A stretch of DNA of 64,000 nucleotides, from NCBI RefSeq assembly GCF_014055025.1, contig NZ_CP059571.1, positions 1,178,001 through 1,242,000 of the forward strand. The letters run 5' to 3'. Below the pieces are notes generated by a model, which was not told the DNA's origin, searched no databases, and worked only from the letters and a program-made list of their open reading frames with translations. The stretch's first letter is position 1, and each line of letters begins with the position of its first letter. This DNA is from Neisseria bacilliformis. Lineage in GTDB: Bacteria; Pseudomonadota; Gammaproteobacteria; Burkholderiales; Neisseriaceae. Below are positions 1-11,903 of the stretch, piece after piece. The position numbers and the translations under genes are program-made.

Positions 1-93
1 ACGGCAGGCAACAAAAACCGCTAAATCTTTGTCGGATTAGCGGTTTTTGTCATTCCTGCATACGCCGGAATAGTGGGTTTGGTGGAGGCGGGG
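1..93. repeat. attL: left direct repeat of the ssrA-integrated element
   Basis: Positions 13-93 are identical over 81 bp to 9908-9988, and positions 1-12 match 9894-9905 imperfectly. The repeat holds a hairpin terminator (about 13-47) and the last bases of the tmRNA 3' end, the complement of ..GCCTCCACCA, at 80-93. After 93 the sequence leaves the tmRNA, so this is a duplicated ssrA tail and not a second tmRNA gene. The repeat may extend beyond the window. Confidence 0.9.
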
Positions 94-156
94 TACTTCG
101 TACTTTTTAATTAAATAATTGATTTAAATAATTTTAATTTTTATAAATCTGCAAAT

Positions 157-175
157 GTTACCCCAAAAGTTACCC
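157..175. other. int: Candidate integrase arm-type sites, left
   Basis: GTTACCCCAAAA at 157-168 is followed at once by GTTACCC at 169-175. The same tandem arrangement occurs at 9841-9861 near the right end, and inverted copies lie at 9708-9719 and 9764-9775. Repeated short motifs close to both attachment sites are the usual form of the arm sites bound by the N-terminal domain of tyrosine integrases. Binding is inferred. Confidence 0.55.
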
Positions 176-327
176 TATAATCGCTTGGTAGGGGGTGTTT
201 GCCGCTTCTGTGTGTGGCCGTCTGAAAATACGGTTTCAGGATGATGAAGCGGTTGGATGGGCAAAGGTGTTATTGTTAATTTAATGTTAAGATTGCAGGG
301 TGTGAAATATATAAATTGCGCAAAAAT

Positions 328-435
328 GGTTGTTATGGTTGTTATGGTTGTTATGGTTGTTATGGTTGTTATGGCTTTGTTTTTAATGTATAAATTTATA
401 ACATCCTGAAAAAGCCTGGTTGTTATAGTTGTTAT
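328..435 (+). repeat. Left iteron cluster, GGTTGTTAT
   Basis: Five perfect head-to-tail copies of the 9-mer GGTTGTTAT occupy 328-372. A sixth lies at 418-426, followed by AGTTGTTAT at 427-435. The surrounding DNA is A+T-rich. The same 9-mer recurs in both orientations at 8254-8357. Clustered short repeats in a satellite carrying its own primase and helicase resemble the ori and crr iterons of phage P4. The role in replication is inferred. Confidence 0.6.
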
Positions 436-618
436 AATTTTGACTTTTTTGCTGGTATTTTTGAGATAAAAGTCTCATCTATGCTTTTGGTATTTATCAT
501 TATGATATTACTAAATTAGGCTGTTTTCTTAACGTTAGTTTAACAAATGGTCTTTTGCGGGTTTGGCAAAAAAAAAACCGCCCTTTTCGGGGGCGGTTTA
601 CGATAGTTGTGTTCTTTG

Positions 619-631
619 AGGCCGTCTGAAA
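619..631 (+). repeat. AG-type DNA uptake sequence (example of a window-wide family)
   Basis: AGGCCGTCTGAAA and its complement occur dozens of times, in most intergenic gaps and inside several genes (for example mpl, comA, gabD-like, earP). This is the AG-DUS dialect known from several Neisseria species and recognised by the pilin ComP during natural transformation. Inverted pairs spaced 2-35 bp apart act as terminators. The density is clearly lower inside the island. Confidence 0.95.
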
Positions 632-658
632 CCTTGCAACGGGATTTTCAGACGGCCT
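619..658. terminator. Uptake-sequence hairpin terminator at the end of the helicase gene
   Basis: An inverted pair of AG-type uptake sequences (619-631 and 646-658) is followed by T residues. The hairpin overlaps the stop codon of the DUF927 gene. A 47-bp segment spanning it (615-661) is repeated exactly at 8062-8108. Confidence 0.7.
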
Positions 659-2354
659 TTTTCATTCCTCGGGCGGTTTCTGCGCCTGCCAGTACATAAA
701 AGCGGCCTTTGCCGTATTTCTTGCATTTCCAGCGGCCATCCGCCGCTTTCATCATCCAGCCGATGCCGTGCAAGACGGCGCAGGCTTTGTTTTTGTCTCT
801 GCCCTTCATGATTTCGTCCTCGAAAATGACGGGGATTATCCAGTATTCGGCCTTTTCGCCCTGCCCGTTGTCTTTGCGGTAGCCTGCATGGTCGCGGTTG
901 GTGTATTCGTCGCGCCAGTCGGCAAAGCGCAGGCCGTGGGCGTGTTGCTGCATGAAGGCGGCCATGTTGCGGATGATTTGGTGGTCTTCATGTTTGCCGC
1001 TGCCGTTGTCGGCGTGCCATTCGTCAAAGCATTGCTTGATACCGGCCATGCCGACACCGGCAGGCAGGGCGGTTATGTCGGCGGCCAGTTCCAGCGCGGC
1101 GGCGGCAAGGGCGAAGCGGCGGGCGACGCGGGCGGCTTGGCCGTCCATCTCGGGCAGGGCGGCAAGGAATGCTTCAAAGGCGGCGCGGATGGTGTCGGCG
1201 GGCAGGGTTTGCAGTTTGGCTATCCATGCGCGGATGGCCGTGCCGTGGTATTGCCGGGCGGCCTGTTGCAGGTGGTCGGCAAGGGCTGCGCCGTTGGGGT
1301 GGCCGTGCAGGGTGTCGAAGATGCCGTAGCGGGCGGCGGCGCGGATGCTGGGAAGGCGCACGGCCTGCCCTGCTTCCCATGTTTCGCCCGCCCGTTCCAT
1401 GTAGGCTTGCAGGGCGTATTCGCCGGTTGAGAACAGCAGGATGCGCCATTCTTGGGCGGGGCGGTTGCCGCCCTCTTTCGCGCCCTGAATCTTGGATTTG
1501 CCGTTGATGACGGAATAGGCGGTTTTGCTTACGGTTTTGGGGTGGGCTTCGCCGATTTCGTCGAGAACAAGCAAACCGTCGTTGCGGGCAAGGGCGGCAT
1601 TGGAAAAGCCTAAATCCGTGCCGCGCCATGCGAGTTTGAGGGCGGCGGGCGTGCCGTAGACGGACAGGCCGACAAGGGCGGCGGTGGTTTTGCCGTCGGA
1701 TGAGTCGCCGTAGATGTGGAAGCCGCCGTTTGCTTCGCCGAACAGGTGCAGCAGCGGGGCGGCCAGTGCCGTGCCGATTGCCAGCAGCAAGCGGGAATTA
1801 CCGGCGGCGCGGGCGGCTATTTCGCGCTGCCAGTCGGCAAGGCTGCCGCTTTGGGTGTAGGCGGGGGCGGGGTCGCCGTTGTAGATGATGTGTTCTTTGT
1901 CTGAAACGATGGTTTCGCCGTTGGGCAGGATGTAGCCGCCGCCGTGCCAGCCTGCTTTATCGGTTACGGTGTATGGGGTGGTTTGGCCGTCTGTTTGCAG
2001 GTAGTCGGCCAGCAGTTCGCGTTTGCGCCGTCCGCTCATGACGGTTATGCCCCATCCTTGCAGACGCTGCCAGCTTGGCGGTGTGCCGATGTCGGCGCAG
2101 GATAGCGCGGCGGTTTTGCTTTGGCGGGTGAGGGTGTCCCGCCATTGGATGATGCGGTAGTAGTGGCCGCCCGCGTCGATGCCCCGCCCGATTAGTTCGA
2201 TTTGGTCGGACAGGCGCAGGGGCGGTTTTTCGATGATGCCGCCGTCTTTGTCGGTTTCAATGTGGCAGTAGTAAACGCCGCTGCGGGTGCAGTCGTAGTA
2301 GGGGCGGTCGGCCACGGGTTCAAAGTGGGCTAACGGGTCGTTTGCTGCGCTCAT
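648..2354 (-). CDS. DUF927-domain helicase-like ATPase of the satellite
   Basis: 568 residues. A Walker A motif GDSSDGKT lies at 216-223 and a Walker B-like segment LLVLDEIGE at 261-269. These sit in a block (about 180-400) typical of DUF927, the domain found downstream of primase modules in P4-like and other satellite replication proteins. The likely role is the helicase part of element replication, with the TOPRIM and zinc modules encoded just upstream (2450-3502). The ATG at 2354 has a weak AGAAAG ribosome site. The last three residues and the stop are an uptake sequence (Lys-Ala-Val-stop). The family assignment is firm; helicase activity is inferred. Confidence 0.85.
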   Translation of the reverse strand: MSAANDPLAHFEPVADRPYYDCTRSGVYYCHIETDKDGGIIEKPPLRLSDQIELIGRGIDAGGHYYRIIQWRDTLTRQSKTAALSCADIGTPPSWQRLQGWGITVMSGRRKRELLADYLQTDGQTTPYTVTDKAGWHGGGYILPNGETIVSDKEHIIYNGDPAPAYTQSGSLADWQREIAARAAGNSRLLLAIGTALAAPLLHLFGEANGGFHIYGDSSDGKTTAALVGLSVYGTPAALKLAWRGTDLGFSNAALARNDGLLVLDEIGEAHPKTVSKTAYSVINGKSKIQGAKEGGNRPAQEWRILLFSTGEYALQAYMERAGETWEAGQAVRLPSIRAAARYGIFDTLHGHPNGAALADHLQQAARQYHGTAIRAWIAKLQTLPADTIRAAFEAFLAALPEMDGQAARVARRFALAAAALELAADITALPAGVGMAGIKQCFDEWHADNGSGKHEDHQIIRNMAAFMQQHAHGLRFADWRDEYTNRDHAGYRKDNGQGEKAEYWIIPVIFEDEIMKGRDKNKACAVLHGIGWMMKAADGRWKCKKYGKGRFYVLAGAETARGMKKAV

Positions 2355-2449
2355 GGTGTCTGCTTTCTGTGTTTGCTGCGCCTCTGTTGCGTTTTCCTGC
2401 GGTTTGGGCGCATGGGTAAGGGGGTGGGACGTCTGAATGGGGAAGCGGG

Positions 2450-3235
2450 CTATACGGGCGGTTTTGGGGCGTTTGTAGCGGCCTGCCGCCTGTTCAGTTC
2501 GTCCAGTGCGTCAAAGCCCGCTGTTTCAGGCTGCCAGATGCCGCCGCCTATGCCTGCGCGGGCAGCGCGGCGGGTGAGGGCTTCGGCGGCCTTGCGGCCT
2601 GTTTGACTATGGTCGTTGTCGGCGGCGATTAGCAGGGTTTCCGTGCCGTGCGGCCATTGCAGGTTTTGCAGGCCGTGGGCGGACAGGGCGGCTATGGCCG
2701 GTGTTTGGAACAGCTGCCATGCGGCAAGGGCGGTTTCTATGCCCTCCGCTGCGATGATGCGGCCTTGAAAATCGGGCGGGTAAAGGTGTACCGCCGCGCC
2801 GTGCAATGCTCCGCCGTAGCGGGCGGCCATTTTCTTGGCGGGCAGGGGGTCGCCCGTGTCGGGGTGGATGCCTGCGAACTTGCGCCCGTCTGTTTGCAGG
2901 TAGGTTTTGTGCAAGCCCTGCAATGTGCCGTCGGGGGTGCGGATGGCGGCCAGCATGGCGGGGCAGCTGCCGATGCAGGCGGGGCGGTTGTCGGCGCAGC
3001 GGGTTATCCAGTAGGGCAAGGCGGGGCAGTAGCGCAAATCGGGGCAGGCGTCGAACAGTTCGGGCGAAAGGCCGCGCCCTTTGAGGTACAGGGCGGCGGG
3101 CGTGCCGTCTATCGGGGCGGCGGCGTTGAAAAGGCGGATTAGTTCGGGCTGTTTGTCGGGTTTCGGCTCGGGGCTTTCAGGCTGCCTTGCGGCGGGCGGG
3201 TTTTCAGACGGACTCATGCCAAGCAAGGCGGCCAC
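2450..3235 (-). CDS. TOPRIM primase module (C-terminal part of a split P4-like primase)
   Basis: About 261 residues if read from the GTG at 3235; an ATG lies at 3217. The segment AAEGIETALAA followed by ADND fits the metal-binding acid residues of a TOPRIM primase core. The reading frame is the same as the zinc-binding module upstream, and only the TAA at 3238-3236 separates them, directly before this GTG. In P4-type primases the two domains form one chain, and the join EAAR-stop-VAALLG reads as such a chain with one codon changed. The protein may be made by reinitiation, readthrough or not at all. Domain call fairly sure; the start is uncertain. Confidence 0.75.
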   Translation of the reverse strand: MAALLGMSPSENPPAARQPESPEPKPDKQPELIRLFNAAAPIDGTPAALYLKGRGLSPELFDACPDLRYCPALPYWITRCADNRPACIGSCPAMLAAIRTPDGTLQGLHKTYLQTDGRKFAGIHPDTGDPLPAKKMAARYGGALHGAAVHLYPPDFQGRIIAAEGIETALAAWQLFQTPAIAALSAHGLQNLQWPHGTETLLIAADNDHSQTGRKAAEALTRRAARAGIGGGIWQPETAGFDALDELNRRQAATNAPKPPV

Positions 3236-3502
3236 TTAGCGGGCGGCTTCGGCAAATGTCCAGCCATACACCAGCATGAGTAAATCAAAGCCGCTGCCGC
3301 CTTCGGGGGTGCATTGGTTGCAGATGTAGCCGCCGCCGTCTTGGTAGTCTGTGTAGCGGTAGCGGTCTTTGCCTCCGCAATGGGGGCAGGGACGGTGTCT
3401 GCGTTTGTCCAGCAGGTCGGCGGGGATGCCTAGCGCGGCATGGATGGCAGGCCAGCGGCCTTGCGCGGCGGCTTTGAGGTCGGATAAGTCGGGGCGGTTC
3501 AT
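3236..3502 (-). CDS. Zinc-binding primase module (N-terminal part of a split P4-like primase)
   Basis: 88 residues from the ATG at 3502. CPHCGGKDRYRY followed about 15 residues later by YICNQC is the CX2C...CX2C zinc ribbon of P4-like primases, which helps template recognition. The preceding WPAIHAALGI and following GFDLLMLVYGWTF also match the usual N-terminal module. It ends at a TAA that directly precedes, in frame, the GTG of the TOPRIM module. The reading frame is open upstream to the small gene starting at 3736, so a fusion of both (166 residues) cannot be excluded. Confidence 0.75.
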   Translation of the reverse strand: MNRPDLSDLKAAAQGRWPAIHAALGIPADLLDKRRHRPCPHCGGKDRYRYTDYQDGGGYICNQCTPEGGSGFDLLMLVYGWTFAEAAR

Positions 3503-3736
3503 TCGGCGGCCCCTATCAGGATGGCGTCGGGGGCTTGCGCCGCGAAAGAAGAAGGGCGGCAGGGTTTGGCTGATGTGCCGTTTGATAACGGGATGGCGGG
3601 CGGCGTAGATGTCGCAGGCGGCTTCCGCTTCTTCGCGGGTGGGAAACTCGCCGATGGGGGCGTAGCACTCTGTGTAGGCTTCTCCGGCCACGGGGCGGGG
3701 GTTGGGGATGGTTACAACGGCGATATAGGGTTTCAT
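3503..3736 (-). CDS. Small island protein, paralogous to the gene at 5096
   Basis: The ATG at 3736 has a good AAAGGAG site and overlaps the previous gene's stop (ATGA). The protein begins MKPYIAVVTIPNP and contains IGEFPTREEAEAAC, close to LGYFPTKRAAKAAL in the island gene at 5096, so the two look like duplicated members of one family. The frame has no stop before the zinc-binding module, giving a 166-residue chain ending at 3236. The end is set here at the ATG of that module because the arginine-rich join looks unlike a real linker. No function is recognised. A frameshift near 3530 could give a separate stop at 3500-3502. Confidence 0.45.
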
Positions 3737-3987
3737 TGCGTTCTCCTTTCGGGCGTTTCGGGCAGGATGCCCATGCTTTCGGGGCTTGCGCCTGCCGCTT
3801 CCAGCACGGCATGCAGCAGGCTGCGCATTTGGGCGGCGGTTGCTTGGTTTTCGGGATGCGGGCAGGATGTTTTGCCGCATATCGGGCAGGGCGGCAGATC
3901 GGCGATGCGTTGCAGTTCGGCAAAGTCTAGATTCAGCCTGCGCAGGCCGTCGGCCAAAATGGCGCGGTTGGCGGCTTCGGTGTCCAT
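3733..3987 (-). CDS. Small protein with a Cys/His cluster
   Basis: 84 residues, ATG at 3987 preceded by GGGAGAAAGG. CPICGKTSCPH at residues 34-44 could bind one zinc ion; the rest is helical and acidic. The stop overlaps the next start (ATGA), so translation is probably coupled. I do not recognise a family. The position among replication and packaging genes suggests an accessory regulator, but this is only context. Confidence 0.6.
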   Translation of the reverse strand: MDTEAANRAILADGLRRLNLDFAELQRIADLPPCPICGKTSCPHPENQATAAQMRSLLHAVLEAAGASPESMGILPETPERRTQ

Positions 3988-4094
3988 GTGCGGCCTTTCT
4001 CCCGCCGTGGGGGCGCAATACGGGCTTTTGTGCGGCGGGGATGGGTAGGGGGGATGCCCGCAAAGGCCGTCTGAAAGCCTCTGCGGGGGTGGGA

Positions 4095-4424
4095 TTAGGC
4101 TGCTTCGCTATCGGATTGCGCTGCCGCTTCGGGAAGCTCCCAAAGGGCGGTAGCCAAATCAAAGCCGTTTATGTCGTCGGCTTTGGCGATAAGGTCGTCA
4201 AGTATGATTAGCTGCCGTGCGATAAGCGGGTCGCAGTCGCCCAAAAGACGGAAAACGGTGTCTTTGATGGTGGAAGCGTGTTGCACGAATCCCGCCAAAT
4301 CATTCAGGCCGTGAGCGGCCTGTTCGGCAAGGGCGCGGGGAATGGTTACGGTTTTTTCCTGATGGGAAACGGGGGAAGTTTGGATTGAAGATTGCGCGGC
4401 TGCGCTGGTTTGAAGTTTTGCCAT
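4095..4424 (-). CDS. Hypothetical island protein
   Basis: 109 residues. The ATG at 4424 has a strong AGGAGG site, which sets the start. The N-terminal 25 residues are Ser/Gln/Thr-rich, followed by KTVTIPRALAEQAAHGLNDLAGF and a helical domain with an acidic tail. No known domain is recognised. It lies 11 bases after the 89-residue gene and about 100 bases before the Cys/His protein, in the same transcription unit. Confidence 0.6.
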   Translation of the reverse strand: MAKLQTSAAAQSSIQTSPVSHQEKTVTIPRALAEQAAHGLNDLAGFVQHASTIKDTVFRLLGDCDPLIARQLIILDDLIAKADDINGFDLATALWELPEAAAQSDSEAA

Positions 4425-4435
4425 TTGATGGCCTC

Positions 4436-4705
4436 CTATACGGTTTGAGATTTGAGAATGCCCATATGGGGGCGGGTGCTCTCTCCGGCGTATAGTCCGG
4501 CGCGGTCGTTGCCGATACCGCACACCCGCCATAACTTGACGGCTGCGCCTGAAACAGGCGGCCTTTGGGAAATGGTGGCGCAAAAAAATCTGCAAGCCGT
4601 GCAGATTTCGGCTATACGTGTTGAGAGAGAATCTGCATTCTGCAATCTCTGCGGGGGTTTGTCAAGCATGGCAAGGCCGCTGTAGTCGAGTATCAGGGCG
4701 TTCAC
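4436..4705 (-). CDS. Hypothetical 89-residue island protein with GTG start
   Basis: It starts at GTG 4705, whose TGA overlap (GTGA) with the stop of the terminase-like gene implies coupled translation. The C-terminal segment WRVCGIGNDRAGLYAGE is distinctive, with a basic, short tail. No domain is recognised. Support is the coupling and the tight packing between two well-supported genes. Confidence 0.45.
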   Translation of the reverse strand: MNALILDYSGLAMLDKPPQRLQNADSLSTRIAEICTACRFFCATISQRPPVSGAAVKLWRVCGIGNDRAGLYAGESTRPHMGILKSQTV

Positions 4706-5109
4706 GGCTGCCCCTCCGTCTTTTGCGGCTCGCTGAAAATGTCGGCAAGGCTGCGCGTTTCCACTTTGACGGCCACGCCTGCGGATACGTCCACGCGGTC
4801 GCCGTATTTCTTGGGCGCAAGGCGGGCGGCCAGCCATTTGCGGGCATCTATCCGCGCTTTGGCTTTAGCTACTGCGGCGGCTTCCGGCTCGCATGAATCG
4901 GCAATCTCGATGATTTCATCTGCCAGCATATCGGCCTGCATCTCGCGCGCGTGCGCGTATCTCTCCGAAAATTCCGCGCTTTCGGCTATCCAGCGGTAAA
5001 CGGTGGACTGCGCCGGCATGGCTTTGCTGCGGCAGATTTGCGCCATGCTCTGCCCTGCGGCCAGCAGCTCGCAGATGCGTTCCATGATGTCGGCTTTATC
5101 GGTTTTCAT
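4702..5109 (-). CDS. Small terminase (TerS)-like DNA-binding protein
   Basis: 135 residues, ATG at 5109 with GGAGAA site, overlapping the previous stop. The N-terminal 45 residues form a helix-turn-helix (ICELLAAGQSMAQICRSKAM, then STVYRW) like small terminase subunits of phages. The middle is a charged helical region (EMQADMLADEIIEIAD) and KYGDRVDVS matches the end of the core seen in terminase-like proteins. In phage satellites a dedicated TerS redirects a helper's packaging motor to satellite DNA. No large terminase is present, which fits that reading. The alternative is a plain phage regulator with the same fold. Confidence 0.7.
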   Translation of the reverse strand: MKTDKADIMERICELLAAGQSMAQICRSKAMPAQSTVYRWIAESAEFSERYAHAREMQADMLADEIIEIADSCEPEAAAVAKAKARIDARKWLAARLAPKKYGDRVDVSAGVAVKVETRSLADIFSEPQKTEGQP

Positions 5110-5401
5110 GCTGCTTCTCCGTGCTTTCGGTTGTGGGGCCTATACCGCGTTTTTGCGCCTCCGATGCCAGCAGGTCGAAAACCGCGCTAGGGGTTTTGCG
5201 CTTGGTTTCCAACACCAGCCAAACGGCGGCGGGGTGCTGCGCGATGATGTCGGCAAGGGCGGCTTTTGCGGCGCGTTTGGTCGGGAAATAGCCTAATGGG
5301 GTAAAGGTGTAATTCAGGCTGCCTTCTCCGCTTGGCAGGGCATAGGCGGCAAGGCAGGGTTTGGGGGCGGGCGGGTTGCGCTTGGGTTGTTTGGCTTGCA
5401 T
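5096..5401 (-). CDS. Small island protein, paralogous to the gene at 3503
   Basis: 101 residues from the ATG at 5401; an in-frame TTG or ATG upstream is possible. Contains YALPSGEGSLNYTFTPLGYF and PTKRAAKAALADIIAQHP, matching the arrangement in the gene at 3503-3736. Function unknown. A 20-codon mini-ORF with an AAAGG site (5413-5475) precedes it and could be a leader. The gene overlaps the TerS start. Confidence 0.55.
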   Translation of the reverse strand: MQAKQPKRNPPAPKPCLAAYALPSGEGSLNYTFTPLGYFPTKRAAKAALADIIAQHPAAVWLVLETKRKTPSAVFDLLASEAQKRGIGPTTESTEKQHENR

Positions 5402-5482
5402 GGGGTTGTCTTTCAAATCGGGGACTGCATGGGATTGACGTTGCAAACGGGGTTTGCATGGGGTTGTTTTCGCATTTGCCTT

Positions 5483-5770
5483 TCAGGCTGCCAGCGTGAA
5501 TACTCCGCGCTTGACGGTGTGGCCGTGTTTGTTTTCAAACGGGCGCATGGTGCAGACAACGGGGAAGCCTGCCGCCCTGATTTCGTTGATGCGGGCAGTA
5601 AAGGCCATGATGCCCATCTGCGCGGCCTCGTAATGGGTGAGGCTTTTGCCGCTTTGCAGGACGGCCAGAATTTCGGCGCATTGGCTGTTGGGGCGGAAGG
5701 GGTTACAATGGCGGCTCGCTTTCTGTGCCGCGCCTGAAATGCCTTTGCCGGTGTTTCGGGCGTTTTTCAT
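5483..5770 (-). CDS. Small helix-turn-helix protein of the island
   Basis: 95 residues, ATG at 5770 with AGGAAA site and overlap with the preceding stop (ATGA). The centre (QCAEILAVLQSGKSLTHYEA then GIMAFTARINEIRAAGF) is a winged-helix-like pattern seen in small phage proteins. The N-terminus is basic. Probably a DNA-binding regulator, translated together with the AlpA-like gene. Family recognition is by pattern only. Confidence 0.65.
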   Translation of the reverse strand: MKNARNTGKGISGAAQKASRHCNPFRPNSQCAEILAVLQSGKSLTHYEAAQMGIMAFTARINEIRAAGFPVVCTMRPFENKHGHTVKRGVFTLAA

Positions 5771-5868
5771 GCGGTTTCCTCCATTGGCGCAACTACATAG
5801 GGTTTGCCGTCGGCATCTATCAGGCATAGGGGCCTGCTGTGGAATGGGATGTTTATCAGGGTATTCAT
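5767..5868 (-). CDS. 33-residue island peptide, coupled to alpA
   Basis: The ATG at 5868 overlaps the alpA stop (ATGA) and its own TGA overlaps the start of the next gene. The peptide begins MNTLINIPFHSRPLCLIDAD. It contains the ribosome site for the following gene. Both overlaps are exact, which argues that it is translated. Function unknown; it may only serve coupling. Confidence 0.5.
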   Translation of the reverse strand: MNTLINIPFHSRPLCLIDADGKPYVVAPMEETA

Positions 5869-6098
5869 GCCTGCCCCTCCGCTTGCTGTTGCAGCCATGC
5901 TTTGATTTCGCCCGCCACATAGAAACGGCTGCGCGTGCCGGTGATTTGGCGGCTTTGGGGGAATAGGCCGCGCGATTCAAGGCGGCGGATTTGTGAGGCG
6001 GACAGGCGGGTAAGCCCGCGCCGTTTGCGTGCCGCGCTGGTTTCCAGTTCGGCAATGGTAAGCTGCGCGTTGTTGTCGATGTTGTCTAGGTTTTGCAC
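5865..6098 (-). CDS. alpA: AlpA-family regulator / excisionase
   Basis: 77 residues from the GTG at 6098, chosen because AAAGGA lies 7 bases upstream; longer readings have no ribosome site. LSASQIRRLESRGLFPQSRQ followed by RFYVAGEIKAWLQQQ is the winged-helix pattern of AlpA/MerR-like excisionases that bind near att sites and turn on satellite genes. It heads a chain of overlapping genes (33-residue peptide, then the 95-residue protein). In Gram-negative satellites AlpA controls integrase expression and excision; that role here is inferred. Confidence 0.8.
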   Translation of the reverse strand: MQNLDNIDNNAQLTIAELETSAARKRRGLTRLSASQIRRLESRGLFPQSRQITGTRSRFYVAGEIKAWLQQQAEGQA

Positions 6099-6268
6099 GG
6101 GTTGTCCTTTCGTTGCTGGTGTTGCGATGGGCGAAAGAATAGCCGCCCTTGCGGGGCGGCGTGAATGTTGGCAAATCGGTTTTTCAGGGGATTTTTTGCA
6201 ACGTGAAAAACGGGTTTTTCGGGCTTTGGCCGTTACGGACAAAATGCCTTTTTTGGGGGTTTGGTCGT

Positions 6269-7051
6269 TTACTCTTTGTATTGCAAGATGATTTCGTCTA
6301 ATGCGTATATCATGGCGTTGCCCATTTCGGGGCGGGTTTCGGCAATGGCCGTCAGCATCTGCCGCACGGCTGCCAGCATCTCGGGCAGGGGGCGGGCTGC
6401 GGGCAGGGTGGCGGCCTGCCGCAATGTTTCAAGATGCCGCCTGTGTTCCAGCTCCGCCCGCGCGGCCTTTTCGTTTTCGGCCTGTTGCCTGATTTTTTCC
6501 TTTACCCGTTCGGTGAGGTGGTCGGCAATCCATCTTTCCGTTATGTCCTGCTTTTCGTCTTCGCGGATTTCGCGGTACATGGCGGCGCGGTACAAATCGA
6601 AGGTTTGGCGGTTGTCAGGCTCTATGCTCAATTCCGTTCGGACAATCTGCCATATGTTGAACAGTATCTGCCGCCTGCGCGGGTTGCCTTTGGCGTTGCT
6701 CTGCGGGTTGGTGTGCGGGAATGATTCAAGGGCTTGCAATAGGCCGTCGGCACGGATTCTGAACAGTTGGCCGCTGTATGTGTGGGCGTGAAAGCGCAGC
6801 AGGTCGGCAATACCGGCTTTTGTCCGCTCTGCCGCCTTGCAGATTTCGGGAAGGGTGTAGCCCGGATTGTCCGGCAGGGCGGCCAGCCGTTTTGCGCAGT
6901 ATTGCAGGGAAGGTTTCGGAAGGCGGATGCCGCGTGATTTGGTTATGCGTTCCAAAATGTCCAGCAGCATGGCGGCGGGATGGATGCGGAAGGCTTCGTG
7001 ATTGGTTTCTGAAATTTGCGGGGTGAGGATTTCACGGTCTGCAAAAAACAT
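6269..7051 (-). CDS. Hypothetical 260-residue island protein
   Basis: ATG at 7051 with AGGA seven bases upstream; an in-frame TTG lies two codons earlier. The protein is soluble and helical, with a charged coiled-coil-like stretch in the last third (ERVKEKIRQQAENEKAARAE). No known domain is recognised and it has no signal peptide. It is the first gene after the HigA terminator, so it may begin the early transcription unit. A unique accessory gene of this island is as likely as a replication factor. Confidence 0.6.
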   Translation of the reverse strand: MFFADREILTPQISETNHEAFRIHPAAMLLDILERITKSRGIRLPKPSLQYCAKRLAALPDNPGYTLPEICKAAERTKAGIADLLRFHAHTYSGQLFRIRADGLLQALESFPHTNPQSNAKGNPRRRQILFNIWQIVRTELSIEPDNRQTFDLYRAAMYREIREDEKQDITERWIADHLTERVKEKIRQQAENEKAARAELEHRRHLETLRQAATLPAARPLPEMLAAVRQMLTAIAETRPEMGNAMIYALDEIILQYKE

Positions 7052-7079
7052 ATTCAAGTCCTATCGGGGGAAGGGGTAA

Positions 7080-7106
7080 AGGCCGTCTGAAAATTTCAGA
7101 CGGCCT
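7080..7106. terminator. Uptake-sequence hairpin after higA
   Basis: Two uptake sequences inverted with almost no loop, AGGCCGTCTGAAAA then TTTCAGACGGCCT, between higA and the hypothetical gene at 6269. It probably separates the toxin-antitoxin transcript from the downstream unit. Confidence 0.65.
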
Positions 7107-7198
7107 CGATATTTTCAATAATCCAAGCAAAAACGGGCTGCCGGATAAGGCCGCATAAGCGCAAAAAACACCGGCGCGGGGGCTGGTGTTTTCAGACG

Positions 7199-7564
7199 CT
7201 ACACGGTTCGTATCAGGATGTCGGCGGATATGCCAAGCTCCGAATGCAGGCGGCGGATCATGGCAAGGCTTAACGGGCGTTTGCCGCTGAACACTTCGTA
7301 AACGCGGTTCGGCCTGCCGATGATGCCGCCCATGTCTTTCACGGTCAGGCCGCCTTGCTCCATGCGGAACTTGATGGCCTCGATGGGGTCGGGCGGATCA
7401 ATCGGGCAGTGTTTGGCCTCGTATTGCTCCACAAGCGCGGCCAGCACTTCGCAGCGGTCGGCCTCGTCTTGGGTCGCGTTGTCGGGGTCGTTGTCGAAAA
7501 ACACGCCCAATTCTTGCAGGGCGGCGCGGTAGTCCGCATCGGTTCGTATGGGTTTGATGTTCAT
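7199..7564 (-). CDS. higA: HigA-type antitoxin
   Basis: 121 residues, ATG overlapping the toxin stop (ATGA). The C-terminal half is an Xre-like helix-turn-helix (GGLTVKDMGGIIGRPNRVYE then VFSGKRPLSLAMIRRL), characteristic of HigA. The N-terminal half (EYEAKHCPIDPPDPIEAIKF) is the usual segment of this subgroup. It neutralises HigB and represses its own promoter. Probably stabilises the island in the host. Confidence 0.85.
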   Translation of the reverse strand: MNIKPIRTDADYRAALQELGVFFDNDPDNATQDEADRCEVLAALVEQYEAKHCPIDPPDPIEAIKFRMEQGGLTVKDMGGIIGRPNRVYEVFSGKRPLSLAMIRRLHSELGISADILIRTV

Positions 7565-7869
7565 GATTGCGGCCTTTCTACCGTTTCCGCGTCCACTTTG
7601 TCATATTCGGCATGTGTGCCGATGAATTTGATGTAGCCGTATTGGGCGGCAAACCAAAACGCCACGATCAGGCGGTAGCGGTTGCCCTTGATGTTGAAAA
7701 CAACGCGGTTGTTTTTCAGGATGCTTGCGCTGCCGAACTGCCGCTTGATGTCGTGCATGGTGCACCATTGGGCGGTCTTCGCTTCTTCATGCCACGCTTT
7801 CAGGGGCTGTTCCGCGTCGGGGTGCGTTTCCCAAAATGCCCGCAGGGCGGATACGGATATGATTTTCAT
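7561..7869 (-). CDS. higB: HigB-type mRNA interferase toxin
   Basis: 102 residues, ATG at 7869. The sequence MKIISVSALRAFWETHPDAE with NNRVVFNIKGNRYRLI and YIKFIGTHAEYDKV matches the HigB branch of the RelE fold, which cleaves ribosome-bound mRNA. Toxin-first order is normal for higBA. There is no ribosome site; a strong promoter ends 6 bases before the ATG, so the mRNA is probably leaderless. Confidence 0.9.
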   Translation of the reverse strand: MKIISVSALRAFWETHPDAEQPLKAWHEEAKTAQWCTMHDIKRQFGSASILKNNRVVFNIKGNRYRLIVAFWFAAQYGYIKFIGTHAEYDKVDAETVERPQS

Positions 7870-7875
7870 GCGGGC

Positions 7876-7904
7876 AATATAATCCCGTTTCGGGGTGTAG
7901 TCAA
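7876..7904 (-). promoter_or_regulatory. higBA promoter and HigA operator
   Basis: On the minus strand, TTGACT (7904-7899) is separated by 17 bases from TATATT (7881-7876). The perfect palindrome CCCGTTTCGGG (7884-7894) sits in the spacer. The -10 box ends 6 bases before the higB ATG. HigA binding to the palindrome is inferred from position. Confidence 0.7.
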
Positions 7905-8064
7905 CCGCGTTCTTGCGTATGCTGGGATATTCGCAAAAATCCCGCCCCTGTTAGCAAATGTTATTATTCAAACACTATCGGGCGGCGATTATGGCGGGGG
8001 ACAGTGCGGAGACGGCAAATTGGCGAGTAGAACTTGAAAAAACTTGAAATTCAAAACGGCATTT

Positions 8065-8108
8065 GAGGCCGTCTGAAACCTTGCAACGGGATTTTCAGAC
8101 GGCCTTTT
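8065..8108. terminator. Uptake-sequence hairpin, second copy of the 47-bp repeat
   Basis: Same sequence as 618-661, with inverted uptake sequences and a T run. With the copy at 615-661 it brackets the coding cassette of the island (about 650-7870). Confidence 0.7.
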
Positions 8109-8253
8109 CAAGTGCGATGCCGTTTCCCGCCCCTATGTTGCGTTTTTAGCGCGGTTAAATGCGCTGGCAATGGTAGGTAGCGGGCAGGGTGCAAAATCAA
8201 TCCTAGCGCGTTCTGGGGGTATTGGCGGCGGTTTGGCTTTTCAGGCTGAAAAC

Positions 8254-8357
8254 ATAACAACCATAACAACCTGAAAACGGCAGTTGTTATGCAGGTTGTT
8301 ATGTTTTTTTCTTTTAAAAATAAATAAGTTAATACCAAACATAACAACATAACAACC
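8254..8357. repeat. Right iteron cluster
   Basis: ATAACAACC occurs at 8254-8262, 8263-8271 and 8349-8357, and ATAACAACA at 8341-8349. The other orientation occurs as AGTTGTTAT (8282-8290) and GGTTGTTAT (8294-8302). An A+T-rich stretch (8303-8340) lies between. These are the same 9-mers as at 328-435 but in mixed orientation, as expected of a second replication or binding site. Confidence 0.6.
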
Positions 8358-8520
8358 TAAAACGCGTTTTTTCTCGCGCGTATAGCGTTTTCGGAAGAAA
8401 CAATCAGGCATGATTGTTTCCTGATGGGAAACTTTTGCGCGCAAAAACAGCGTTTCTAGCGCGATTCCCTTGTGCATGGGAAAGCGGCAGAAACGCCGTG
8501 CATTTCCGGGGCGGGAAACG

Positions 8521-9696
8521 CTATTTTTTCAGCTCGTCCAGATAATCCGCCCATGCCTGCATCATCTGCGCCCGTTGCGGCAGGTATTGCGCTTTGTTGT
8601 AGGCGGCGCGGGTTTGGTTCGGCTCTTTATGGGCAAGCTGCCGTTCTATCCAGTCGCGGTTAAAACCCATCTCGTTCAGCCGCGTGCTTGCGATATGGCG
8701 GAAGCCGTGCGCCGTCTGCCTGCCCTTATAGCCCATGCGTTCAAGGGCTTTCCTGATTGCCCCTTCGCTCAATACCCGCCCGCTGCGGGCAAACACAAAT
8801 TCATAATGCCCCGTAAAAGGGCGCAAATCCTCAATCAGCTTCACGGCTTGGCTGCTTAACGGCACGGCAAAATCCAGCCCGTTTTTCATATCCCGCCCGT
8901 CTTTCTCCCAAAGGGCGGCGGGCAAGTCCAGTTCCGCCCATCTCATCAAACGCAATTCAGACGGCCTTGCAAACGCCAGCGGGGAAAGCCGTAACAGCGT
9001 CCGCACCTGCGGGCTGCCCGTGTAGCCGTCAAAATCCAGCAGCATCTGCCGTAACTCTGCCGTGTCGGACAAATGGGCAAAGTTCCGCTGTTGCACCTCT
9101 GCCAGTTCCGCCCGCAGCTCGGATGCAGGGTTGTAGGGAATCAGGTGCAGGCGCACGGCATAGCCGAAAACCTGATTTACCACGTCAAACACTTTGCGGG
9201 CGGTATCGTTCTTGCCTGCCGCTTCCAGCCTTTGCAGCGTTTCCAATACCCGCAGCGGCTCGATACCGTCCACGGGCAGGCCGCCAAAAGCGGGGAAAAC
9301 GTGCAATTCCAAGCTGCGCAAAACGCGCTTTGCATGGCCATCCGTCCACTTGTCCGGCTTGGCGCACTGGTCGGCGTGCCAGCGGCGGGCAACAGCCTCA
9401 AAGCTGCCCAAAGCCTGATTATTGCGTTGTTTCGGGTCTATGCCCTGTTCGATCAGGCGGCGCACCTCCTCACGTTTTGCCCGTGCCGCCCGCAGGCTTA
9501 CCGCCGGATAAACGCCTAAGCGCATCTCCTCACGCTTTCCCGTCTGCGGATGGTAGTAGCGCAGCCGCCAGTACTTCCCGCCCCTGCCAGCCTGCAAAGT
9601 CAGCCCGCCGCCGTCGGCAAGCTGCGCCGTGCCGCTTTCGGGGATGGCAAGGCGTTTACATTGGGCGTCAGTCAAAGGGGTAACGGCTTTCGGCAT
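8521..9696 (-). CDS. int: P4-type tyrosine integrase
   Basis: 391 residues from the ATG at 9696; the frame is open further (to 9750) but homologues of this type begin shortly before the LTD motif seen at 8-10. The N-terminal DUF4102-like arm domain covers about 1-90, a SAM-like core-binding domain about 100-190 and the catalytic domain about 200-391. Catalytic residues fit Arg244 (ARPSELR), His330 and Arg333 (HGFRH), His356 and Tyr366. It recombines the element with the ssrA 3' end, which lies directly downstream of its promoter region. No clear ribosome site is seen before any start; candidate arm sites overlap the promoter region, which would allow self-control. Confidence 0.93.
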   Translation of the reverse strand: MPKAVTPLTDAQCKRLAIPESGTAQLADGGGLTLQAGRGGKYWRLRYYHPQTGKREEMRLGVYPAVSLRAARAKREEVRRLIEQGIDPKQRNNQALGSFEAVARRWHADQCAKPDKWTDGHAKRVLRSLELHVFPAFGGLPVDGIEPLRVLETLQRLEAAGKNDTARKVFDVVNQVFGYAVRLHLIPYNPASELRAELAEVQQRNFAHLSDTAELRQMLLDFDGYTGSPQVRTLLRLSPLAFARPSELRLMRWAELDLPAALWEKDGRDMKNGLDFAVPLSSQAVKLIEDLRPFTGHYEFVFARSGRVLSEGAIRKALERMGYKGRQTAHGFRHIASTRLNEMGFNRDWIERQLAHKEPNQTRAAYNKAQYLPQRAQMMQAWADYLDELKK

Positions 9697-9861
9697 TTTG
9701 GGGTAGCTTTTGGGGTAACATGAAAAACCGCTGCAAGCATTGCGGCACAATGGATTGCGCGGTTTTTGGGGTAACTTTCGGCAAAAAACGGCCTGTAATT
9801 TGCCTGCTTTTTAGGCAGGTTTTAGGGTGGTTTCGAAAAAGTTACCCCAAAAGTTACCCCA
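9696..9861. other. int: Candidate integrase arm-type sites, right
   Basis: TTTTGGGGTA at 9696-9705, TTTTGGGGTAAC at 9708-9719 and 9764-9775, then GTTACCCCAAAA at 9841-9852 and GTTACCCCA at 9853-9861. The last two repeat the tandem arrangement of the left end (157-175). The cluster overlaps the integrase start and promoter region. Confidence 0.55.
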
Positions 9862-9893
9862 TAAAGCACGGATACGCAAGAATACGCCAGCAC

Positions 9894-9988
9894 ACGGCAG
9901 GTAATAAAAAAACCGCTAAATCTTTGTCGGATTAGCGGTTTTTGTCATTCCTGCATACGCCGGAATAGTGGGTTTGGTGGAGGCGGGG
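9894..9988. repeat. attR: right direct repeat at the intact ssrA
   Basis: 9908-9988 equals 13-93. The part from 9975 on belongs to the tmRNA 3' end, and the terminator hairpin precedes it. The integrase gene is on this side, facing away from ssrA. Confidence 0.9.
9908..9943 (-). terminator. ssrA terminator
   Basis: The hairpin AACCGCTAA...TTAGCGGTT is flanked by A and T runs, 32 bases after the tmRNA CCA end on the minus strand. The island carries a duplicate of it at attL. Confidence 0.8.
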
Positions 9989-10337
9989 GGAATTGAACCC
10001 CCGTCCGAAAGTCCTCTACAAAGCGTTCTACATACTTAGTCTTGCCAACTTGGAATCTTGTTCCCCTCGCGCCGGCAGACGGGCTCTCGGGAAACCAGTT
10101 ACCTTAGATCTTATTTCCCGCCAAGTAACCCGGCGGAAAACCAGTCAATGTGGGATGACGTTGCGGCGGGTTGCCCCGCACAGCCCATTGACAAGCTGCT
10201 GCAACGGCAGGCCTTAGGCGGCCAGTGCGTAAGATTCGTCGTTTGCGACTATTTTCGTTCAGTGTTTTACGGGAAATCTGAGACCCCGGTATGCCCGCAT
10301 CTGCTTCGCAACCCCCGTCGAAACCAAGATCGCCCCC
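9975..10337 (-). ncRNA. ssrA: tmRNA
   Basis: 363 nt, from GGGGGCGATCTTGG at the 5' end to GCCTCCACCA. The T arm GTTCAATTCCCCCCGCC is present near the 3' end, and 5' and 3' ends pair as an alanine-tRNA-like domain. The tag frame at 10246-10214 encodes ANDESYALAA and a stop; other Neisseria are usually listed with ANDETYALAA. It rescues ribosomes stalled on broken mRNA. The island next to it keeps the gene intact because the integrated end restores the 3' sequence. Confidence 0.97.
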
Positions 10338-10352
10338 AGATAGGAAGGGCGG

Positions 10353-10358
10353 ATTATA
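10353..10358 (-). promoter_or_regulatory. ssrA: ssrA promoter -10 box
   Basis: A perfect TATAAT on the minus strand lies 15 bases upstream of the tmRNA 5' end. The -35 region is weak (ATGGAA at 17 bases). Confidence 0.6.
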
Positions 10359-10411
10359 CAGGATTCGGCCGAAGTTTCCATATTCTGTATTTCTGTTGCG
10401 GCGCGATGGTA

Positions 10412-10457
10412 AAGAGGCCGTCTGAAAACCGTGTTTTATGGTTTTCAGACGGCCTCT
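10412..10457. terminator. Uptake-sequence terminator between icd and ssrA
   Basis: Inverted uptake sequences with flanking AAGAG/CTCTT extend the stem. It lies just after the icd stop and separates icd from ssrA. Confidence 0.75.
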
Positions 10458-10474
10458 TGTCGCTCGTGGCGTGT

Positions 10475-11713
<1,239 letters not shown>

Positions 11714-11742: not shown

Positions 11743-11903
11743 GGGCGTGTTGACATTCAACTTTTGAAGCGAACTTTGCGGCATAAAATGGCAGATGCAA
11801 GGCGGAAACACGAGCCTATGCCGTCCATAGGCGAGTGTTTCCAACGCGGCAGATGCCGTTTTAGGGCGTAAAGGCCGCCAAAATGTTGAATGTCGGCACG
11901 CCC
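11743..11903. repeat. MITE-like element A (TA-flanked), upstream of icd
   Basis: 161 bp with imperfect inverted ends: GGGCGTGTTGACATTCAAC at the left and GGGCGTGCCGACATTCAAC as the complement of the right end. It has TA on both sides (11741-11742 and 11904-11905). The interior aligns along its whole length with the reverse complement of 23086-23245. It carries no gene. Confidence 0.75.

Follow-up and report, generated by a model that had tools for sequence, protein, structure and literature searches.

A candidate phage satellite with a P4-style antisense RNA at the ssrA gene of Neisseria bacilliformis

Known satellites and the island at ssrA

Several described elements resemble an island that we analyzed in the genome of Neisseria bacilliformis. 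Gram-negative phage-inducible chromosomal islands (GN-PICIs), such as EcCICFT073 and PmCI172, carry an integrase, an AlpA-type regulator, and a primase/replication module with an origin, have no lytic genes, and in some cases encode the terminase small subunit TerS (PMC6092414). Matches to the C4 and isrK RNA profiles were reported for several GN-PICIs in a study that also treats helper-embedded PICIs (PMC10111431). P4 silences its replication genes through CI RNA, which pairs with seqA and seqC on either side of it (PMC4825925), and the C4 RNA of P1/P7 has three stems, is processed by RNase P, and acts through a loop partly covering ribosome-binding sites (PMC5320573). The literature searched yielded no paper describing a neisserial satellite; the authors of one paper, taking P4/P2 as their model, speculate about cooperation among the gonococcal prophage islands Ngo 1-3 (PMC12186493). 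The island described here spans positions 1-9988 (~9.9 kb) of the window, by which we mean the whole stretch of 64,000 nucleotides analyzed (G000:C1:1178001-1242000 in our numbering of the 2.49-Mb single-contig genome), and the left edge of the window nearly coincides with the island end.

We read this island as an integrated phage satellite with a C4/CI-type antisense off-switch and TerS-based packaging through a helper, at a probability of about 0.7. Its genes, repeats, and RNA structure, the co-varying loop and targets, and the kinship of its TerS can be read from the sequence, whereas excision, induction, packaging, and the identity of the helper are inferred. In class it would be a PICI-like satellite, neisserial in lineage, whose RNA immunity follows the P4 style. 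In the cycle that we propose, integrase and AlpA would excise the island from the 3' end of ssrA. While the island is quiet, a transcript presumably starting near 4630, at a promoter-like site, would give a C4/CI-type antisense RNA. The third loop of this RNA would pair with a site at the beginning of the transcript and with the ribosome-binding site of the gene next downstream; this pairing would stop replication-gene expression, as CI RNA does in P4 and C4 on its P1 target. With an active helper, excision and read-through expression would lead to iteron-based replication, and the island TerS would present island DNA to the terminase large subunit (TerL) of a helper with an Sf6-type TerS, probably the resident prophage or its kin, for entry into helper capsids. 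Such a cycle would add Neisseria, whose members are naturally transformable and for which we found no such element described, to the hosts of helper-dependent satellites, and the self-specific antisense RNA would give a testable answer to how these islands stay silent, with many natural loop/target pairs as built-in tests.

A sequence-only reading of the window had proposed a 9.9-kb island with direct repeats in ssrA, and its limits hold. The flanks are a ~95-bp direct repeat over the tmRNA 3' end with an exact core of 81 nt (13-93 and 9908-9988); with the chromosome left of the window added, 1177998-1178093 and 1187891-1187988 are 96% identical. The repeat takes in the final 14 nt of the tmRNA gene together with the hairpin behind it, so tmRNA stays intact on integration.

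1-93 (beginning 3 bp left of the window), no strand assigned: distal attachment repeat, tmRNA 3' end and terminator hairpin
153-180, no strand assigned: arm-type-like integrase repeat GTTACCCCAAAAGTTACCC, putative function
9695-9721, no strand assigned: arm-type-like repeat, inverted copy
9837-9864, no strand assigned: arm-type-like repeat close to attR
9894-9988, no strand assigned: proximal attachment repeat joined to tmRNA
9975-10337, minus strand: tmRNA gene (ssrA), tag ANDESYALAA

All accepted island genes are on the minus strand, in the order int, HigB, HigA, 262-aa protein, AlpA, small proteins, TerS, 109-aa protein, 84-aa protein, primase pieces, and DUF927.

8521-9750, minus strand: tyrosine integrase (phrog_1, E 2.5e-61)
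7561-7869, minus strand: HigB-like toxin (PF09907, E 1.1e-31)
7199-7564, minus strand: HigA-like antitoxin (Pfam, PHROGs, and PADLOC scans)
6269-7057, minus strand: 262-aa protein
5865-6242, minus strand: AlpA-like regulator/excisionase (PF05930, E 2.5e-4; score 21.3 bits, cut-off 21)
5483-5770, minus strand: small protein (our label hth39), kept in 12 of 39 islands
5096-5446, minus strand: 116-aa frame
4702-5109, minus strand: TerS of the Sf6 gp1 type (PF20901 Sf6_terminase, E 5.5e-43)
4095-4424, minus strand: 109-aa protein, first gene past the antisense RNA
3733-3987, minus strand: 84-aa protein, present in the sister island too
3236-3502, minus strand: Zn-ribbon primase part (PF08273), ending in TAA 3236-3238
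2450-3235, minus strand: Toprim primase part (PF13362, PF23639), with GTG immediately after the in-frame stop
648-2354, minus strand: DUF927 replicative helicase (PF06048, E 5.5e-54; phrog_1139)

The integrase, AlpA, primase, helicase-like ATPase, and TerS-like protein named in the sequence-only reading were thus recovered as matches to phrog_1, PF05930, PF08273/PF13362, PF06048, and PF20901, respectively. The PF05930 match is weak, but the other two islands at a tmRNA site have homologues of this AlpA-like protein at 73% and 70%. TerS aside, no portal, capsid/head, tail, or lysis family was found among the Pfam/PHROGs matches of the scanned island proteins, in line with the absence of virion genes claimed before; the 5483-5770 protein was scanned against PADLOC and NCBIfam only. 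As for defence cargo, PADLOC scans matched the HigBA-like pair (7199-7869) to PD-Lambda-2 A (E 2.9e-39) and to the first 119 aa of PD-Lambda-2 B (E 1.3e-40; the profile has 402 aa), and no other scanned island protein gave a match.

The window island has the integrase, replication module, and master regulator (AlpA/MerR) by which PICIs are defined, at 9.9 kb against a stated size of about 12-15 kb; an attachment site never used by prophages, induction that depends on a phage, and packaging into infectious particles are also part of that definition (PMC6092414). It is unlike the described GN-PICIs in its neisserial lineage, its DUF927 helicase and Zn-Toprim primase, its size, its ssrA site, and its C4/CI RNA, and the helper dependence reported for them would apply here by analogy. 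Ngo 3 is likewise a neisserial island with no predicted structural genes, but its authors present it as a lambda-like prophage island that has a cI-type repressor and genes for replication initiation, and on that description we set it apart (PMC12186493). Gonococcal prophages did not respond to mitomycin C, whereas knock-down of cI did induce them (PMC12186493). The genes psu, delta, sid, and epsilon, whose families were looked for and not found among the Pfam/PHROGs matches of the island proteins, make up the gene list of P4-like satellites. Among the annotated products of the CFT073 element, which we take from its gene numbers to extend from int at 1377930 to 1388654, are a DNA primase family protein as well as major capsid and head decoration proteins; this span gave no Rfam match at gathering scores.

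The island had also been put forward as a candidate for an undescribed system. No description turned up in the literature searched, but the island is not isolated: DUF927 relatives (E 1e-20 or better) are present in 35 of the 83 Neisseriaceae genomes searched, this one included. Of the 71 genomes with completeness of at least 90% and contamination of at most 5%, 33 have such a relative. From the DUF927 places (53 rows, in some cases several for the fragments of a single gene) we took 38 loci (L049-L086), which with the window make 39 islands, and the proposed search for the same layout was answered with DUF927 in all 39, primase pieces in 37, integrase in 36, and TerS in at least eight. Those measured between longer repeats are about 8.3-13.5 kb. 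The integrase adjoins a tRNA or tmRNA gene in 33 of the 39 islands (tRNA-Leu in 25, tmRNA in three, tRNA-Met in two, and tRNA-Phe, -Arg, and -Thr in one each); in the other six, neither was seen beside it. The three tmRNA-site islands (the window, L049, and L060) have similar integrases (52-58%) and AlpA proteins (70-73%), which suggests that the two genes move together as a site-specific pair.

Scans with the single DUF927 protein gave no match in the genome contigs or viral contigs, and a search with alignment A5 found 131 relatives in the former and 227 in the latter, of which the best 80 from each were kept. The search for the layout covered 63 of the best 80 genome loci and found an integrase in 49 and a Zn-ribbon in 42. 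Outside Neisseriaceae, DUF927 relatives of 34-38% stand in loci of Enterobacterales and Pasteurellaceae.

The predicted antisense RNA and its two targets

A C4/CI-type antisense RNA sits between terS and the replication genes. The promoter-like site (4665-4637) is followed by the upstream target (4632-4612), the RNA core, the downstream target over a Shine-Dalgarno sequence, and the ATG (4424) of the 109-aa gene.

4637-4665, minus strand: promoter-like site TTGACA-17-CAGAAT (consensus match only; nine such sites in window 1-10500 against 5.5 expected)
4612-4632, minus strand: upstream target (seqA-like, AUUCUCUCUC..CGUAUAG)
4466-4533, minus strand: core of the C4/CI-type antisense RNA, stem-3 loop CUAUACG (RF02944, 28.5 bits; model R1, 111.8 bits)
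4432-4442, minus strand: downstream target (seqC-like, CGUAUAG at 4442-4436), overlapping the Shine-Dalgarno AGGAGG at 4437-4432

Against Rfam c4-2 (RF02944), the core has an E value of 6e-4 and its score lies below the gathering score of 41, so that membership in the C4 clan (CL00128) does not follow from the score; the three-stem fold with covariation that marks the clan is present. In an alignment from 14 loci, 13 of the 18 base pairs have two-sided changes and 96% of the cells pair, and none of 500 shuffles reached the covariation. The same fold is found in 12 elements outside the model (11 of them distinct), whose alignment was fitted to model R1: two-sided changes occur in 10 of 18 pairs, a count reached by one of 500 shuffles, and the covariation score was reached by none. 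Model R1 found 31 places in 20 of the 83 genomes, including 16 of the 39 islands and three places in the resident prophage, and gave five matches in the best 80 genome loci, in Neisseria, Bergeriella, and Conchiformibius.

The stem-3 loop shows complementarity to the stretch immediately preceding the start of the next gene, with a run of at least 6 in 17 of 19 elements. The mean run is 6.6 with the native partner against 3.8 with mismatched partners, of which 16 of 342 reach 6, and none of 20000 permutations was as good. The second set behaved alike (10 of 12; mean 6.4 against 4.0, with 20 of 132 mismatched pairs reaching 6; 0/20000 permutations), and its loops are diverse, with 11 distinct among the 12. 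At the upstream target, which mostly lies ~85-125 nt before the core, a run of at least 6 occurs in 27 of 31 elements compared with 18% of mismatched pairs (0/20000 permutations). Loop and both targets thus vary jointly between islands on the seqA-CI-seqC plan of P4 immunity (PMC4825925), and by sequence the window island shows the P4-like arrangement, in which a CI-type RNA and its targets on both sides precede the replication genes.

RNA immunity in satellites is known in kind, because it is documented in the papers on P4 CI, P1/P7 C4, and the C4/isrK RNAs of GN-PICIs, and because Rfam finds C4 in five (and isrK in three) of the seven non-neisserial DUF927 loci scanned; what is added here is the form found in Neisseria relatives, how widely it occurs among these islands, and the triple co-variation. 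We had considered C4 in satellites as a novelty in itself and dropped this, since GN-PICI matches are already in PMC10111431. The RNA belongs to the same clan as those matches, but it is a neisserial form below threshold in Rfam, tested here for a loop that co-varies with two targets, and the word Neisseria is absent from the text of PMC10111431 searched. With P1/P7 C4 it shares the three-stem fold and a loop over a ribosome-binding site (PMC5320573); the gene controlled there is an antirepressor, whereas the next gene in the window island encodes the 109-aa protein ahead of the replication genes.

The resident prophage region contains three C4-type RNAs (L015:11120-11232, L017:3590-3708, and L017:11904-12005), and the genes following them look by eye to be of KilA-N or Rha type. 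Cross-silencing between prophage and island RNAs is not supported, the complementary runs being only 3-5. At L159:1501-1612, a C4 loop has only 4-nt complementary runs to its upstream and downstream target regions, which also differ from each other.

TerS, the candidate helper, and packaging genes

The best solved structures for the island TerS are those of Sf6 gp1 (E 3.4e-32). A TerS of this type was found in three of the 46 Neisseria genomes searched, this one included, and the copy closest to the island protein (61% identical) is a second one in the same genome, in a resident prophage of about 46 kb (~675.9-722 kb; G000:C1:675853-722005, L015-L017, with approximate ends). There, TerS starts the late genes, which continue with TerL, portal, protease, major head protein, sheath, and baseplate. 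A TerS docks on TerL by way of its tail. The island protein has the same type of C-terminal tail as that of its own prophage, which it matches at 12 of 21 positions in residues 106-126, compared with 2 of 21 for each of the proteins from genomes G023 and G014; at residues 8-50, it matches both the prophage and G023 at 20 of 43. On this likeness of sequence, the resident prophage is the candidate helper. The attachment repeats listed as candidates for this prophage were rejected as uptake-sequence repeats. As in the Staphylococcus aureus pathogenicity islands, a satellite-coded TerS would redirect helper packaging (PMC6092414), but the protein is of the Sf6 gp1 type here and the redirection putative.

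TerS-like genes of three families (PF20901, PF03592, and DUF1804) occur in at least eight of the 39 islands. The cargo scan covered 87 representatives (clusters in at least two islands, or single proteins of at least 100 aa inside islands on the minus strand), so the TerS counts are lower limits, and the cargo families are those among the matches listed, the best 25 of 86 and the best 25 of 36. The Terminase_2 cluster comprises six islands (PF03592, E 8e-16 for the member scanned, from L080). A sister island in the same chromosome (~1278.7-1287.3 kb, L069) lies at tRNA-Leu with a different integrase and has a Mor-like late activator directly before DUF1804 (E 6.5e-42; L069:10990-11993), both known from Mu-like phages. 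DUF1804 relatives are present in 21 of the 83 genomes, with no second copy in this one, and in genome G019 a terminase large subunit (E 3e-115) comes 0.2 kb after such a relative. Other islands have Mor-, Gam-, or head-protease-like genes; L053, L054, L061, L070, and L071 share a head-maturation-protease-like protein (phrog_976, E 5.8e-26 for the L070 member) that might serve capsid remodelling. Mu-like phages have been reported in N. meningitidis (PMC12186493), and in our boldest reading, drawn from gene content, some of the islands may have Mu-like helpers.

With the odds somewhat against it, one could see in these islands a Neisseriaceae satellite family with one replication core, swappable packaging adaptors for unrelated helpers (Sf6-type TerS here, Terminase_2 in six islands, a Mu-type set in the sister and others), and differing antisense-RNA specificities, by virtue of which several islands could share one cell with no mutual silencing. 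Satellites of Mu-like transposable phages would then be a new kind of helper relation. The two islands of this chromosome, alike in replication block but not in packaging parts, make it possible to ask what decides a satellite's choice of helper.

The replication block and rival explanations

The replication block of the sister island, 3261 bp long, has 99.4% identity to window 641-3897, and it too carries the in-frame TAA (3236-3238 in the window) that splits the primase between its Zn-ribbon and Toprim parts. Among the 37 loci with both primase parts, the stop is found only in these two islands (in L081, the junction itself is missing). The window island has two iteron clusters.

329-435, no strand assigned: iteron cluster, seven copies of GTTGTTAT, putative replication origin
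8254-8356, no strand assigned: second iteron cluster, six copies

In P4, ori and crr form two iteron clusters, an arrangement that the window island shares; its primase and helicase, however, differ from those of P4, and it has its own TerS. Iteron arrays (8-mers) lie below DUF927 in 33 of the 39 islands, beyond 30 shuffles each, and in the 28 islands compared the iteron sequence tracks the DUF927 C-terminus, with iteron similarity of at least 0.86 in 13 of the 14 pairs at 0.79 identity or more. The one exception is the window and its sister, at 0.99 for the DUF927 C-terminus and 0.71 for the iterons. We read the replication block as imported into the window island, the sister being its likely source. 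Since the DUF927 C-terminus is nearly that of the sister yet the iterons differ, replication may be poor.

These features weigh against a functional satellite and leave its full replication in doubt. Others are that only 16 of the 39 islands gave a C4 element with R1 and only eight a TerS, a lower limit; that the upstream run of 6 is missing in L050, L159, L162, and L168; that the permutation tests (0/20000) ignore relatedness, with L078/L081 and L144/L162 sharing an RNA core; and that the 262-aa protein has no relative in the other 82 genomes searched. The claim of a complete P4/PICI-like satellite survives in part: there is good support for a satellite-like island with this gene set in ssrA, and the genome contains a candidate helper prophage, but "complete" is doubtful given the in-frame stop in the primase and the imported-looking block with its iteron mismatch.

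The same facts could mean that a once mobile satellite is now fixed, its primase interrupted and its replication genes overwritten by those of the sister. We consider this unlikely, though it would fit a stop confined to the two islands of this genome and for the near-identical block beside unmatched iterons. The attachment repeats, integrase, TerS, and RNA switch with its targets all look intact; GTG stands directly after the primase stop, so re-initiation could yield both primase parts; and EcCICFT073 lacking pri-rep still moves at low frequency (PMC6092414).

More improbable is a cargo-carrying integrative island unrelated to phages, in which the TerS gene would be a chance prophage remnant. 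It would fit the 31 of 39 islands that gave no TerS in the representative scan, and the int/AlpA/primase layout may be common to other integrative elements, but three TerS-like families recur in at least eight islands, others carry Mor-, Gam-, and head-protease-like genes, and the window TerS frame is open with a tail matching that of the resident prophage. That the island is a full prophage stripped of its late genes, as TerS and a C4 element common to it and the resident prophage might suggest, is very improbable, because 35 of the 83 genomes have this compact core and the C4 specificity of the island differs from that of the prophage.

A clean empty site was not obtained in relatives, the left-flank gene not being found in the 30 loci examined. 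Four of these loci, from other genomes (L121, L125, L133, and L134), have integrase-like sequence in the vicinity of tmRNA, and L134 is an island of the Neisseriaceae DUF927 family. Just outside the left end of the island, a third, partial copy of the attachment hairpin lies at 1177860-1177912, and 58 bp within G000:C1:1177860-1177990 resemble the sequence upstream of icd (~window 11835-11892), perhaps the scar of an older event.

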